Source: Chromatiales bacterium
GTDB taxonomy: Bacteria; Pseudomonadota; Gammaproteobacteria; Thiohalomonadales; Thiohalomonadaceae
NCBI GenBank assembly: GCA_003251535.1
Contig: QKFD01000122.1
Coordinates: forward strand, 1 to 64,000
Reading direction: 5' to 3'
DNA length: 64,000 nucleotides
In this document: positions 16,325 through 25,939 of the stretch, one piece after another
Numbering within the stretch: the first letter of the stretch is position 1
How the letters are laid out: each line of letters opens with the position of its first letter
Translations under genes and position numbers: made by a program
The notes under the pieces: model-generated
The model's database searches: none
Told to the model about the DNA's origin: nothing
The model's input: only the letters and a program-made list of their open reading frames with translations

Positions 16325-16475
16325 CGTCTATCCACTCCTCGTCTCCCGCCGGGTGGCGGGGTGGTCGGTCATCGTTGCGGTCGCGCGCCGGAGCGGCGCC
16401 GATCACGGTATGTACCGTGGTTCGACCCTGTTCGGTTGGTGTCAGCAGCGCTAACTCGATAGCCTGCCCGTCGGC

Positions 16476-20304: not shown

Positions 20305-20318
20305 TTGACAAACGTCAA
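20305..20318 (+). promoter_or_regulatory. FNR/ANR-type operator upstream of ccoNOQP
   Basis: A perfect palindrome TTGAC-AAAC-GTCAA that fits the FNR/ANR consensus TTGAY-N4-RTCAA. Its centre at 20311.5 lies about 42 bp before the start point expected from the -10 hexamer at 20342. This is the spacing of class II FNR-activated promoters, which is normal for cbb3 oxidase genes induced at low oxygen. Confidence 0.8.
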
Positions 20319-20732: not shown

Positions 20733-22160
20733 GTGGAAGCGACACAAGTAGAACAGAAATATAGCTTTGATGTAGTGCGGTGGTTTTCCATCGCAGCTGT
20801 CGTGTACCTGGTTGTAGGCACCCTCGTGGGTGTCTATGTCGCCTCTGAACTGGCCTGGCCTTGGCTCAATATGGATAGTCCCTATCTGAGCTTTGGTCGT
20901 CTGCGTCCCCTCCACACCAACGCCGTTATCTTTGCCTTCGGTGGCTGTGCCTTGATGGCCACGGCCTACTACTCGGTGCAGCGCACCTGCGGTGTTCGCC
21001 TCTTCAGCGACGCCCTCGGGTGGTTCACCTTCTGGGGTTGGAACGTCATCATCGTTCTGGCGGTCATCACCCTGCCTCTCGGCTTCACCTCCGGTAAGGA
21101 GTATGCGGAGCTGGAGTGGCCGGTGGATATCTTGATCGCGGTGGTGTGGCTCTCCTTCAGCTTCAACTTCATCATGACCGTGGCCAAGCGCAAGACCTCG
21201 CACATCTATGTGTCGAACTGGTTCTTCATGGGCATGATGGTGATGATCACCTATCTGCACGTGGTGAACTCGCTGGCTATCCCGGTCACCCTGTTCAAGT
21301 CCTACTCCATCTTCTCCGGTGTGCAGGACGCCATGATCCAGTGGTGGTGGGGCCATAACGCAGTAGGCTTCTACCTGACTGCTGGCTTCCTCGGCATCAT
21401 GTACTACTTCGTGCCGAAGCAGGCTGGGCGCCCGGTCTTCTCCTACCGCCTCTCTGTGCTGCACTTCTGGGCACTGATGTTCGGCTACGTGTGGCTGGGT
21501 GCGCACCACCTCCAGTACACCGCTCTGCCTGACTGGACCGGCTCCCTGGGTGCCGCTGTCTCCCTGGCGATGATCATCCCCTCCTGGGGTGGTGCCATTA
21601 ACGGCATGATGACCCTCTCTGGCGCCTGGGATAAGCTCCGCGACGACTACATCCTGCGCTTCCTCATCATGTCCCTGGCCTTCTACGCGATGTCCACCTT
21701 TGAAGGCCCGGTCATGTCCTCCAAGACCGTTAACGCCCTCTCTCACTACACCGACTGGACCGTTGGCCACGTGCACTCCGGCGCCCTGGGCTGGGTGGTG
21801 ATGGTGGCAGCTGGCGCCCTGTACCACCTGGTGCAGAAGCTCTGGAACACCGAGATGTACAGCGCCAAGCTGGTGAATCTCCACTTCTGGATGGCGACCA
21901 TCGGCGCCGTGGTGTACATCACCGCGATGTGGGTCTCCGGCATCATGCAGGGCCTGATGTGGCGGGACTACGACGAGTTCGGCACTCTGACCTACACCTT
22001 CGCTGAGTCGGTGGCTGCTATGCACCCCTACTACGCGATGCGTGCCATCGGCGGCATGATCTTCTGGGCCGGTGCTGTGGTCATGCTCTACAACGTCGTC
22101 ATGACCGTGCGTAAAGCCCCTGCGACCAGCACTGTGCGTGCAGCGGCAGCTCGCGCCTAA
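20733..22160 (+). CDS. ccoN: cbb3 cytochrome oxidase subunit I
   Basis: A 475-residue, 12-helix catalytic subunit of the high-affinity terminal oxidase. It binds heme b and the heme b3-CuB centre that reduces oxygen. Ligand histidines are visible in [37 protein letters not shown] and LVNLHFW. The start is GTG at 20733 ([13 protein letters not shown]), seven bases after AGGAG, which gives the standard CcoN length. A longer frame from 20577 would add unrelated sequence. First gene of ccoNOQP, expected to be induced by microoxia through the FNR site upstream. Confidence 0.97.
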
Positions 22161-22179: not shown

Positions 22180-22893
22180 ATGGCTGATCAGATTCACTCT
22201 ACCAAGTTGCAGGACAAGGCTGAGCGTAACGTCTTCTTGATGTTCGTGATGCTGCTGGTGCTCCTGTCGGTCGGCGGCCTCGTTGAAATCGTGCCCCTCT
22301 TCTTCTTGAAGGACACGATGGAGCATAACCAGCACCCAGAGGTGATGTGGGACCGCAAACCTGGCCAGACCCTGGCGGACTGGAAGGCAGGCGATGGCGT
22401 GCGTCCTTACACCGCGCTGGAGCTGGCCGGGCGCGACATCTATCGGCGGGAGGGGTGCTACACCTGCCACTCGCAGATGATTCGCCCGTTCCGCGACGAG
22501 AAAGAGCGTTATGGCCACTACTCTCTGGCCTCCGAGTCGATGTATGACCACCCGTTCCAGTGGGGCTCCAAGCGCACCGGTCCGGATCTGGCTCGCGTCG
22601 GCGGCAAATACTCCGATGCCTGGCATGAGCGTCACCTGCGCGCCCCGCGCTCCGTGGTGCCCGAGTCAGTGATGCCGAACTACCCCTGGCTTGAAGAGAA
22701 CAAGCTGGACGGTGCTTTCGTGGCAAGCATGATGAGAGGCATGAAGACCATCGGCGTGCCTTACGAGGAGAGCGATATTGCCGGCGCCGCTGCTGCGGTC
22801 GAGGGTAAGACGGAGATGCAGGCGGTGATCGCCTTCCTGCAGGTCCTGGGCACCATGGTTAAGTTCGACGAGAACACGAACTACCGTGAATAA
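22180..22893 (+). CDS. ccoO: cbb3 cytochrome oxidase subunit II (mono-heme cytochrome c)
   Basis: A 237-residue periplasmic cytochrome anchored by one N-terminal helix (about 18-43). Heme c is attached at C93-x-x-C96-H97 in [16 protein letters not shown]. The methionine ligand is probably in VMPNYPW. The [36 protein letters not shown] core is typical of CcoO/FixO. It passes electrons between CcoP and CcoN. It lies 19 bp after ccoN. Confidence 0.97.
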
Positions 22894-23089
22894 GCTCCAG
22901 GAGTACTTCCATACCGACTGGGCGGCGATGACGCTGCATGACTGGATCGGGCTACTGCTCACCGTCACGGTCTTTCTCGCCCTGATATATGTGTATGCCT
23001 ATGTACTCCACCCAAAAAACCGCGAAAAGCTAGAGTCCCAACGTCGTCTACCGGACGATGAGGAACCCGATTCGGAGGATAAAAAATGA
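22886..23089 (+). CDS. ccoQ: cbb3 oxidase small subunit CcoQ
   Basis: A 67-residue protein with one membrane helix ([22 protein letters not shown]) followed by a charged cytoplasmic tail ([12 protein letters not shown]), the standard CcoQ layout. CcoQ stabilises the oxidase. It starts with GTG inside the end of ccoO (8-nt overlap) and overlaps ccoP by four bases. Confidence 0.9.
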
Positions 23090-23931
23090 GCGAAAAGAGC
23101 AATCCGTACAACGTGCCAGATACGGGGCACGTGTGGGATGACAACCTGCGGGAGCTCACCAATGATCCCCCCAAGTGGTGGATGATTGGTCTTCATGCCA
23201 GCTGGATCCTGGTGGTGATTTACACCATCATCTACCCCTCCTGGCCTTGGTTTGGGGGCGCCTACAAGGGCATGATGAGCTGGACGTCCATCGGTGAATA
23301 TAAAGAGGACATGAAGGCCATCGATGCCATCCGCGCTCGTTACGAGGAGAAGCTGCCTGGTATGTCGGCAGCCGCTATCCTGGGCGACAGCGAGCTGAGC
23401 CAGTACGTCACCAAGTCAGCCAAGGTGCTGTTCGGTGATAACTGCGCCGCCTGCCACGGTAACAACGGTGCCGGTAATACCGACTACCCGATCCTGGCAG
23501 ACGACGATTGGCTCTATGGTGGCAAGATCGACACCATCGTGCAGACCATCACTGGCGGTCGTCAGGGTGTGATGCCGGCCAAGGGCGGCGCTCAGCTGAC
23601 CGAGACCGAGATCGATCAGCTGGCTCAGGCCATCTCCAAGGGGGAGCCGACCACTGCTCCGGCTTGGCAGAAGGGCGCCTGCTTTGCCTGCCACGGCATG
23701 GACGGTAAGGGGATGCAGGCCCTCGGCTCTGCCAACCTGACCGACCACGTGTGGCGCTTTGGTAAGGGCAGCATCGACGACATCAAGTACACCATTACCC
23801 ATGGTGTTAATGACCCGAAAGACCCCGCCACCCGCAACGCGGTTATGCCTAAGTTCGGTGGTGGTAAGCTGAGCGAGACCGACATCAAGAAGCTGGCGGT
23901 GTTCGTGCATCAGCTGGGCGGTGGTAAGTAA
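23086..23931 (+). CDS. ccoP: cbb3 cytochrome oxidase subunit III (di-heme cytochrome c)
   Basis: A 281-residue membrane-anchored di-heme cytochrome that receives electrons from soluble c cytochromes. The N-terminal VWDDNLRELTNDPPKWW motif and one helix (about 34-55) are followed by two cytochrome c domains with C120-x-x-C123-H124 and C199-x-x-C202-H203. Methionine ligands lie in GVMPAKGG and AVMPKFGG. It ends the core ccoNOQP genes. A 36-codon ORF follows at 24010. Confidence 0.97.
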   Translation: MSEKSNPYNVPDTGHVWDDNLRELTNDPPKWWMIGLHASWILVVIYTIIYPSWPWFGGAYKGMMSWTSIGEYKEDMKAIDAIRARYEEKLPGMSAAAILGDSELSQYVTKSAKVLFGDNCAACHGNNGAGNTDYPILADDDWLYGGKIDTIVQTITGGRQGVMPAKGGAQLTETEIDQLAQAISKGEPTTAPAWQKGACFACHGMDGKGMQALGSANLTDHVWRFGKGSIDDIKYTITHGVNDPKDPATRNAVMPKFGGGKLSETDIKKLAVFVHQLGGGK

Positions 23932-24009
23932 GAGAGCAGGACCGTGTCCATTCGCTGCCCCGGTGGTCTGGCCACTGGGGCGGCTTGAGCAAGCAAGAGG
24001 AGTGAAACG

Positions 24010-24120
24010 ATGGACTGGGTAGAAATCGGTTCCTATGCAGCGGTCGTCATCTCAATCGTGATCATGATTTTCTTCCTTATCAAGGGTTATAACCTGATCT
24101 ATAAGGATGGCGATAAGTAG
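24010..24120 (+). CDS. 36-residue single-helix membrane peptide downstream of ccoP (CcoM-like candidate)
   Basis: ATG to TAG gives a 36-residue peptide. MDWVEIGSYAA leads into a hydrophobic helix (AAVVISIVIMIFFLI) and a short basic/acidic tail (YKDGDK). A strong ribosome-binding site (AGAGGAG) ends seven bases before the ATG. A strong terminator starts 25 bp after the stop, so it would be the last cistron of ccoNOQP. Pseudomonas stutzeri cbb3 oxidase carries a subunit of similar size and topology, CcoM, but encoded elsewhere. The link here rests on position, length and topology, not on sequence identity. Confidence 0.7.
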   Translation: MDWVEIGSYAAVVISIVIMIFFLIKGYNLIYKDGDK

Positions 24121-24145: not shown

Positions 24146-24173
24146 AAGGGGGGCTTACATGCCCCCCTTTTTT
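24146..24173 (+). terminator. Intrinsic terminator of ccoNOQP and the 36-residue peptide
   Basis: GGGGGGC (24148-24154), loop TTACAT, GCCCCCC (24161-24167), extended by AA/TT, then a run of T residues to 24173. It separates the oxidase genes from the ccoGHIS assembly genes. Confidence 0.92.
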
Positions 24174-24217
24174 GCATCTGTCTCGCCGATGTGGCGGGCA
24201 CCTTGCGCATCAGCGTG

Positions 24218-24226
24218 TGGTAATAT
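24218..24226 (+). promoter_or_regulatory. Extended -10 promoter for the ccoG leader
   Basis: TGGTAATAT is a TGn extended -10 followed by TAATAT. No convincing -35 lies 17 bp upstream, which is usual for extended -10 promoters. Transcription would begin near 24233, giving a leader of about 290 nt before ccoG. Confidence 0.55.
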
Positions 24227-24232
24227 GCGGGA

Positions 24233-24505
24233 TTATGCAGAACCCCCACCTGATGAGGGATGTTCAGCCCGCCAGTGGGCACCAAACAAGCGGTTATCCT
24301 GGACCAGTCGGAGTCCGGGGGGAAGTGCAGGCACCTCTATAAAGAGGTGACCTGTAGATGGATCAGCGCAGCCGCCCGGTGGGGTGGGCAGACGCGGGGA
24401 GACGATGCTCCGTTGCGGAACGTGCCCTCAATCGTATGATTGGAAGGTGCACTGCCTGCCTCAACCGATGTCCAACAGACACGCTGTGACCGTGCGCCCC
24501 CGTAG
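24233..24505 (+). ncRNA. Candidate structured leader or small RNA upstream of ccoG
   Basis: This stretch has no coding frame but several short hairpins. CAGG-CACCTC (24328-24337), loop TATAAA, GAGGTG-A-CCTG (24344-24354) forms a 10-bp stem with one bulge. GGAC/GTCC is at 24301-24316. CAATC-GTAT-GATTG (24429-24442) is nested in GTGC/GCAC (24422-24425 with 24449-24452). A further CGCC/GGCG hairpin precedes the ccoG ribosome-binding site. I compared it by memory with 6S, SRP, RNase P, tmRNA and common riboswitches and saw no match. It may be a 5' UTR or an independent RNA. Folding was done by eye only. Confidence 0.4.
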
Positions 24506-24523
24506 GCGCGTGAAGGAGAGCCC

Positions 24524-25939
24524 GTGACGACCGAAGCAGATCAGAGCGTCCAAGAGCACGCGGACGAGCTCTATAACGAATATTGGCATGTGAATACCGG
24601 CGGCCAGACCATCCATGCCAAACGGATGCCTGGCCGCTTCCGCAACATCAAGTGGATGACCGCTTCGGTCTGGCTCATCTTCTTCATCGGTCCTTATATA
24701 CGTTGGAAGGACCGCCAGGCGATCTTGTTTGATATCCCTGGGCGTAAATTTCATATCTTCGATATCACCATCATGCCGCAGGACGTCTGGATGCTCTCTC
24801 TGACGCTCCTGTTCTTCGCCATCCTATTGGCTGTGGTGACCTCCATTGCTGGCCGCGTCTTCTGTGGCTACTTCTGCTTCCAGACGGTCTGGACCGATAT
24901 CTTCACCTTCATTGAGGAGAAGCTGGAGGGGCCGCCGCAGAAGCGACGCAAACTGGATGAGGCGCCCTGGAGTGGGCATAAGCTGCTCATCAAGGGGAGC
25001 AAGAACCTCATCTGGATCGCCATCGGTAGCTTTACGGGCATCCACTTCACCCTCTGGTTCGTTGATGCCTTTCAGATGTGGCATGGCTACCTCACCCTCA
25101 CTGCGCCAACCTTTGCCTGGGGGGCGGTGGTCGTATTTACCTTCTTCACCTACCTGTTTGGCGGCATCATGCGCGAGCAGGTCTGCTTCTGGCTCTGTCC
25201 CTACGCCCGCATTCAGGGGGTGATGTACGACAAGGAGACCATCCTCCCCACCTACGATTTCCATCGGGGTGAGCCGCGCGGCAAGCTCAAGAAGGGACAG
25301 GTAGCGGAGGGGCTGGGGGACTGCATCGATTGCGGTCAGTGCGTGGCGGTCTGTCCTACGGGTATCGATATCCGGCAGGGGCAGCAGGAGGGGTGTATCA
25401 CCTGCGCGCTCTGCATCGACGCCTGTGATTCGGTGATGGACAAGATCCAAAAGCCGCGCGGTCTTATCCGCTACGCCTCCTGGGATGAGATCGACGGCAT
25501 TCCCACCAAACCGTTCTGGCGCCGGGCGCGGCCACTGGTCTACATCACCATCATGGTGTTGGCGGCCGGGGGCATCCTCTATGGCCTGACCCATTTGGGG
25601 GCCCTCGACCTGCGGGTACTGCACGAGCGGCAGCCGCTCTATGTGCAGCAATCCGACGGCTCCATCCAGAACAAATATGAGCTGAAGATCCTCAATAAGC
25701 TCGACCACGACGTGCCGGTGGAGATCTCCGTGTCCGATGCCCCCAGTGGCTACATTATGGATGGGGCGAATGGGGTAATCACGGCCCGGGGCGGTGAGGT
25801 GACGGTGCGCACCGTGTTCATGCGGGTCAAGCCTGAAGCACTCACTGAGTCGCGCCTGCCGGTGACCTTTGTGGTGCGTTCGCAGGATGGGAAGTTGGAT
25901 GCACACTACGACAGCATGTTCTTCAGTCCAGATCGCTAA
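24524..25939 (+). CDS. ccoG: cbb3 oxidase assembly protein CcoG (FixG/RdxA)
   Basis: A 471-residue membrane iron-sulfur protein that helps supply copper for cbb3 oxidase, probably by reducing Cu(II). About five membrane helices are present, including the CGYFCFQTVW segment and the CFWLCPYARIQGVMYD loop. Two 4Fe-4S motifs follow (CIDCGQCVAVCP and CITCALCIDACD). A C-terminal immunoglobulin-like periplasmic domain completes it. The start is a GTG after GAAGGAGAG. First gene of ccoGHIS, transcribed from its own leader. Confidence 0.96.
   Translation: MTTEADQSVQEHADELYNEYWHVNTGGQTIHAKRMPGRFRNIKWMTASVWLIFFIGPYIRWKDRQAILFDIPGRKFHIFDITIMPQDVWMLSLTLLFFAILLAVVTSIAGRVFCGYFCFQTVWTDIFTFIEEKLEGPPQKRRKLDEAPWSGHKLLIKGSKNLIWIAIGSFTGIHFTLWFVDAFQMWHGYLTLTAPTFAWGAVVVFTFFTYLFGGIMREQVCFWLCPYARIQGVMYDKETILPTYDFHRGEPRGKLKKGQVAEGLGDCIDCGQCVAVCPTGIDIRQGQQEGCITCALCIDACDSVMDKIQKPRGLIRYASWDEIDGIPTKPFWRRARPLVYITIMVLAAGGILYGLTHLGALDLRVLHERQPLYVQQSDGSIQNKYELKILNKLDHDVPVEISVSDAPSGYIMDGANGVITARGGEVTVRTVFMRVKPEALTESRLPVTFVVRSQDGKLDAHYDSMFFSPDR

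Follow-up and report, generated by a model that had tools for sequence, protein, structure and literature searches.

Introduction

The operon of the cbb3 oxidase is usually described as four genes, ccoN, ccoO, ccoQ and ccoP. In Pseudomonas stutzeri the crystallised cbb3 complex has a further small component, CcoM (PDB 5djq chain N), which PMC8267372 describes as needed for the stability of the complex; PMC10433244 is cited as well for P. stutzeri. In Campylobacter jejuni, two small proteins with a single helix, CcoX and CcoY, are encoded behind ccoP, and oxidase activity is lost or lowered in their mutants (PMC8267372); in Shewanella CydX is the last cistron of a terminal-oxidase operon (PMC3899249). 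The sole curated CcoM model, NF041600, recognises the Pseudomonas type.

Here we examine an ORF behind ccoP in a 64,000-nucleotide stretch from a Chromatiales bacterium (contig QKFD01000122.1, positions 1 to 64,000), referred to as the window. On the basis of sequence comparison and analogy, we hold with fair confidence that it is the fifth and last cistron of the operon and encodes a single-helix inner-membrane protein, which probably stabilises the assembled oxidase as CcoM does.

Organisation of the cbb3 locus

The following features, all on the forward strand, were identified in the window:

20733–22160 (+): ccoN, catalytic subunit (TIGR00780, E 5e-204), with a GTG start assigned by its ribosome-binding site
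22180–22893 (+): ccoO, monohaem subunit, from the ORF list; relatives' ccoO at the same position is 75–80% identical
22886–23089 (+): ccoQ, between ccoO and ccoP, with a weak FixQ match (E 0.04, below the cut-off)
23086–23931 (+): ccoP, dihaem subunit (TIGR00782, 209.7 bits, over the cut-off)
23954–23984 (+): hairpin with a 14-bp stem and no T tract, located between ccoP and the peptide gene
23995–24002 (+): Shine-Dalgarno sequence AAGAGGAG, read from the sequence, 7 nt 5′ of the ATG
24010–24120 (+): gene for a 36-residue single-helix membrane protein (ORF list, homologs, dN/dS, AlphaFold, profile match and CcoG tree)
24146–24175 (+): intrinsic terminator, with a 9-bp stem at 24146–24169 (7 G-C pairs) and then a T run
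24524–25939 (+): ccoG, from the ORF list, first gene of the following assembly-gene cluster and outside the structural unit

The ccoQ gene is conserved in all relatives, and CcoG at this place is 66–74% identical in the members of the same family that carry the peptide. The terminator is followed by ccoG-ccoH-ccoI-ccoS, with the CcoS-like ORF behind ccoI near 29.06 kb. A displaced ccoQ was rejected as the identity of the small ORF, since the operon has its own at 22886–23089, and a displaced ccoS was rejected because of the CcoS-like ORF behind ccoI.

The original prediction had presented the ORF as the last cistron of ccoNOQP, with an excellent ribosome-binding site, one membrane helix and a strong terminator just after it. 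Each of these points was borne out. The Shine-Dalgarno sequence AAGAGGAG stands 7 nt upstream of the ATG, and AlphaFold, run with a 34-sequence alignment, predicted one helix at residues 3–32 with a mean pLDDT of 90. The 9-bp stem at 24146–24169 with its T run has an RNA fold z of −3.6 and the most G-C pairs among the six terminator-like sites in 18.5–28.5 kb. Across 34 loci with the peptide, a hairpin with a T tract lies 3′ of the peptide gene in 26 and 5′ of it in five only, so the peptide gene appears to close the ccoNOQP unit and to lie within the structural transcript.

The hairpin at 23954–23984, which had gone unmentioned in the original prediction, recurs in the ccoP-peptide spacer of most relatives, usually without a T tract, with the structure kept between unrelated sequences. 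Counting a hairpin if it ranked above nearly all mononucleotide shuffles, we detected one in 84% of 32 peptide loci versus 42% of 85 control regions behind ccoP; the spacer hairpin is thus enriched at peptide loci and not exclusive to them. Its role may be to shield the message upstream of it or to set how much peptide is made.

The leader of ccoG (24176–24523, about 350 nt) is GC-rich and exceeds that of most relatives in length; its folding excess is modest (z = −1.8), and neither Rfam nor the other loci contained a match to it. At the other end of the operon, a perfect palindrome, TTGACAAACGTCAA, with 2 mismatches from the FNR consensus, is present at 20305–20318, about 415 nt upstream of ccoN, where it overlaps a promoter-like site.

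Evidence for a genuine gene

The ORF runs from ATG to TAG (24010–24120, +) and its product, MDWVEIGSYAAVVISIVIMIFFLIKGYNLIYKDGDK, has 36 amino acids; Shine-Dalgarno-like sites also precede the homologous ORFs. The dN/dS of the gene was 0.03–0.32 in those related-locus pairs in which dS was unsaturated, and 28 non-independent pairs that are 60% or more identical gave 184:110:472 changes at the first, second and third codon positions. Stop codons interrupt the +1 frame in 34/34 homologs and the +2 frame in 27/34. An excess of frame-breaking substitutions had been named originally as what would speak against the gene; the substitutions observed are mostly synonymous, a pattern indicating that purifying selection acts on the peptide. 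We therefore regard it as near certain from the sequence comparison that the ORF is a genuine gene, which would be translated.

Aspartate at position 2 is invariant in the family. No lysine or arginine is found in the first 20 alignment columns, and all 34 members have at least one after column 24; owing to this distribution and the positive-inside rule, the peptide is predicted to lie with its N terminus outside and its C terminus inside. The family has no conserved metal-binding motif.

Distribution of the peptide

A search of 56 relatives detected homologs at the same position within the same family. Among 370 genomes of the class, 38 matched the peptide profile (E ≤1e-3) and 211 had ccoP; in all 29 loci fetched from this search the peptide has ccoP before it and ccoG after it. 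Sampling across the phylum brought in 11 more carrier genomes, all from one family outside the class. In ten of these the peptide ORF has the same two neighbours, and at the eleventh locus (L236, on a short contig) ccoP and ccoG flank a profile match. Conservation downstream of ccoP, raised at the outset as the check to make, was thus seen in many genomes in which the frame is kept. Altogether, the carriers belong to about 20 families (counted by family codes) in two classes of one phylum. Five named relatives were matched, the nearest being a MAG named Thiohalomonas denitrificans, followed by a more distant Sedimenticola MAG; the organism of the window thus probably belongs in Thiohalomonadaceae or close to it. 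A plasmid search found nothing.

All strong matches whose neighbourhood was read are situated between ccoP and ccoG, except for three extra, unlinked copies:

L183 (genome G141, contig C7), 702677–702787 (−): between an NfeD-like gene and glmS
L185 (G319, C11), 16329–16439 (−): away from any cco gene
L184 (G007, C1), 166807–166917 (+): away from any cco gene

Each of these three genomes has a linked copy as well. The unlinked copies have a common RITRLMK(S/T)CNS ending. They suggest that the peptide gene, like ccoM, can leave the operon.

The peptide marks one clade of cbb3 loci

CcoG was used as the marker of the cbb3 locus for tree building. In a tree of 84 rows, all 38 peptide loci fell on one side of one branch, and the Pseudomonas-type locus was not sister to the peptide clade, which we count against our explanation. 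The sample of this tree was biased to carriers, because its peptide loci came from searches with the peptide as query. We added 40 further ccoP loci, chosen by their ccoP only, in genomes where ccoP had scored lower, and these revealed five loci inside the clade without the peptide (L213, L216, L218, L228 and L231). The final FastTree tree, with 110 rows, contains a clade of 60 loci (support 100); the peptide is present in 55 of them and in 0/50 loci outside. Five changes are required to explain this distribution, such as a single gain and some four losses, and the five loci without it indicate that the gene is dispensable in some lineages. Our best reading overall would be that an operon-encoded, CcoM-type accessory subunit marks one large clade of cbb3 oxidases.

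Different small membrane ORFs stand behind ccoP in some loci of other cbb3 clades. Six of these loci (L131, L156, L163, L166, L177 and L214) have two-helix ORFs of 83–88 residues directly behind ccoP; the one from L156 had no Pfam match. In another (L179), a DUF3149 protein (E 3e-10) is a possible counterpart.

Relation to CcoM and other families

No Pfam or NCBIfam model matches the peptide family. CcoQ/FixQ (PF05545) and CcoS/FixS had no match to the peptide, DUF4006 (CcoX) none among the 34 peptides, and NF041600 listed none of the 34 at E up to 0.1. Hits of Pfam Pox_A9 and TMEM132_C (E 0.005–0.007, below the cut-off) were set aside as chance matches to membrane helices. PDB hits were likewise put down to chance, whether the query was the peptide or the profile (8p4t, E 0.75; peptide transporters, E 4.1). 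The peptide had no match in the PDB, where none of the five distinct CcoN sequences was recognised as coming from a peptide carrier. A description of the peptide was not found in the searched literature, which leaves out most subscription papers; mentions of a 'fifth subunit' in two purple-sulfur genome papers concern hydrogenases.

The peptide had originally been likened to CcoM in size and topology, and ccoM was said to be unlinked to the operon. The second statement is right for Pseudomonadaceae: ccoM has no nearby cco gene in any of the 41 neighbourhoods read (29 + 12), nor in genome G166. The P. stutzeri CcoM sequence was retrieved from the PDB as 5djq chain N. CcoM occurs in 46/59 Pseudomonadaceae (one copy has an internal stop), and NF041600 matches 21/21 Pseudomonas CcoM. 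The P. stutzeri CcoM was not found in the genome studied here, and the peptide profile found nothing convincing in those Pseudomonadaceae genomes (best E 0.014). We count this pattern, with CcoM missing here and the peptide missing where CcoM is present, in favour of our explanation. An unlinked 40-residue ORF resembling CcoM (37% identity, E 0.005) was seen in genome G336 (L054, 1501–1620); as the ccoG of that genome groups with Pseudomonas, CcoM may extend beyond Pseudomonadaceae.

The likeness to CcoM went further than size and topology, although NF041600 has no match. The profiles of the peptide and CcoM aligned without gaps over 30 columns at 79.8% probability, and at 90.3% with larger alignments, though short membrane helices easily inflate such matches and 30 columns are weak proof of homology. 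The coinciding conserved columns are D2/D4, G7/A9, S8/G10 and V12/V14 (peptide/CcoM). Shuffles of the CcoM core columns reached the peptide-CcoM score in 0/500 trials, and shuffles within blocks of four columns in 2/500. Real membrane helices, taken from CcoQ, CcoP and CcoG at the peptide loci, gave 0.4–1.9% against CcoM and 0.1–10.6% against the peptide. It is probable, though not proven, that the peptide and CcoM share ancestry. Because NF041600 recognises none of the peptides, we did not file them as CcoM.

Proposed role and alternative explanations

We propose that the peptide gene is transcribed as the fifth and last cistron of the structural operon, before the terminator, and that its product would insert in the inner membrane with the N terminus outside and the C terminus inside. 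There it would probably sit beside the CcoN and CcoP helices of the assembled oxidase, at a site that we can only infer, where its helix may stabilise the oxidase as CcoM does in P. stutzeri. Judged by analogy, a subunit role is likely; the peptide may work like CcoM, whose ancestry it may share. Given the precedents of CcoM, CcoX and CcoY, a stabilising helix is the most economical role.

That the ORF arose by chance over a conserved spacer is hardly conceivable. Short ORFs do commonly arise by chance, with 134 of 25 aa or more counted in 10 kb, and hairpins flank this one on both sides, but a dN/dS well below 1 and the third-position bias exclude a spurious ORF in practice, and the start codon with its Shine-Dalgarno sequence and the conservation over about 20 families argue in the same direction. 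A different origin is harder to dismiss: the peptide could be a subunit of unrelated descent whose helix came by convergence into a CcoM-like place. We find this doubtful, yet far from negligible, as the CcoG tree sets the CcoM clade apart from the peptide clade, NF041600 does not match the peptide and 30 columns are few, and other clades have other small membrane ORFs behind ccoP. Set against it are the gapless 90% profile match with its coinciding columns (D2/D4, G7/A9, S8/G10 and V12/V14) and the much weaker results of the shuffled and real-helix controls.

Two further explanations place the action of the peptide elsewhere. It might be a transient assembly or biogenesis factor, for copper or haem insertion or for the joining of CcoP, that stays outside the mature oxidase. 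The gene adjoins ccoG, and assembly is the task of many small proteins linked to cbb3 (ccoGHIS, and reportedly CcoQ in P. stutzeri, to judge by the title of a paper); however, the peptide is grouped with the structural genes by the terminator in 26/34 loci, has no conserved metal-binding motif and resembles in its profile a component of a crystallised complex, CcoM, so that we consider an assembly factor unlikely. Membrane enzymes commonly have small regulators with a single helix, and the copies away from cco genes in three genomes imply that some relatives may act outside the oxidase; the peptide might then tune the oxidase or couple it, perhaps to the bc1 complex or the oxygen supply, without stabilising it. 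Its position behind ccoP and its restriction to one oxidase clade point instead to a fixed partner, and a purely tuning role seems to us very improbable.

The stabilising subunit that we prefer leads to a wider proposal, that an undescribed operon-encoded fifth subunit characterises a major cbb3 clade, spanning two classes of one phylum, and shares its ancestry with CcoM. Taken as a whole this is tentative, and we give it slightly less credence than its denial. If it is true, CcoM would be an ancient part of the oxidase whose gene moved out of the operon in Pseudomonas, and the unlinked copies of the peptide would reflect such a move in other genomes. Should the peptide be a subunit, many bacteria would have cbb3 oxidases with a fifth subunit encoded in the operon, one that no searched library names and that could escape notice in purification, structural work and annotation. 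Whether CcoM, the peptide, DUF3149 and CcoX/CcoY are one ancestral part or repeated inventions across the cbb3 clades also becomes testable.

Comparison with known systems

CydX (YbgT), with about 38 residues and a single helix, is likewise the last cistron of a terminal-oxidase operon, but it belongs to the cytochrome bd oxidase, and the peptide has no Pfam match to it. The DUF3149 proteins (PF11346), single-helix proteins of about 40 residues, stand behind ccoP in another cbb3 clade (L179), whereas their matches to the peptides are at chance level (best E 0.047, 2/34 members). CcoX (DUF4006) and CcoY of C. jejuni are, like the peptide, small single-helix proteins encoded directly behind ccoP; CcoX is a separate sequence family as far as DUF4006, the one model compared, can tell.

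CcoM (NF041600; PDB 5djq chain N) shares with the peptide the length of 36 residues, the single helix and the occurrence in genomes with a cbb3 oxidase, and both have an N-terminal aspartate and a basic C-terminal side. On the other hand, a conserved GxGYFIWKD-type end is peculiar to CcoM, the two belong to oxidase clades that the CcoG tree separates, and the ccoM gene is unlinked to the oxidase genes, whereas that of the peptide is directly behind ccoP.
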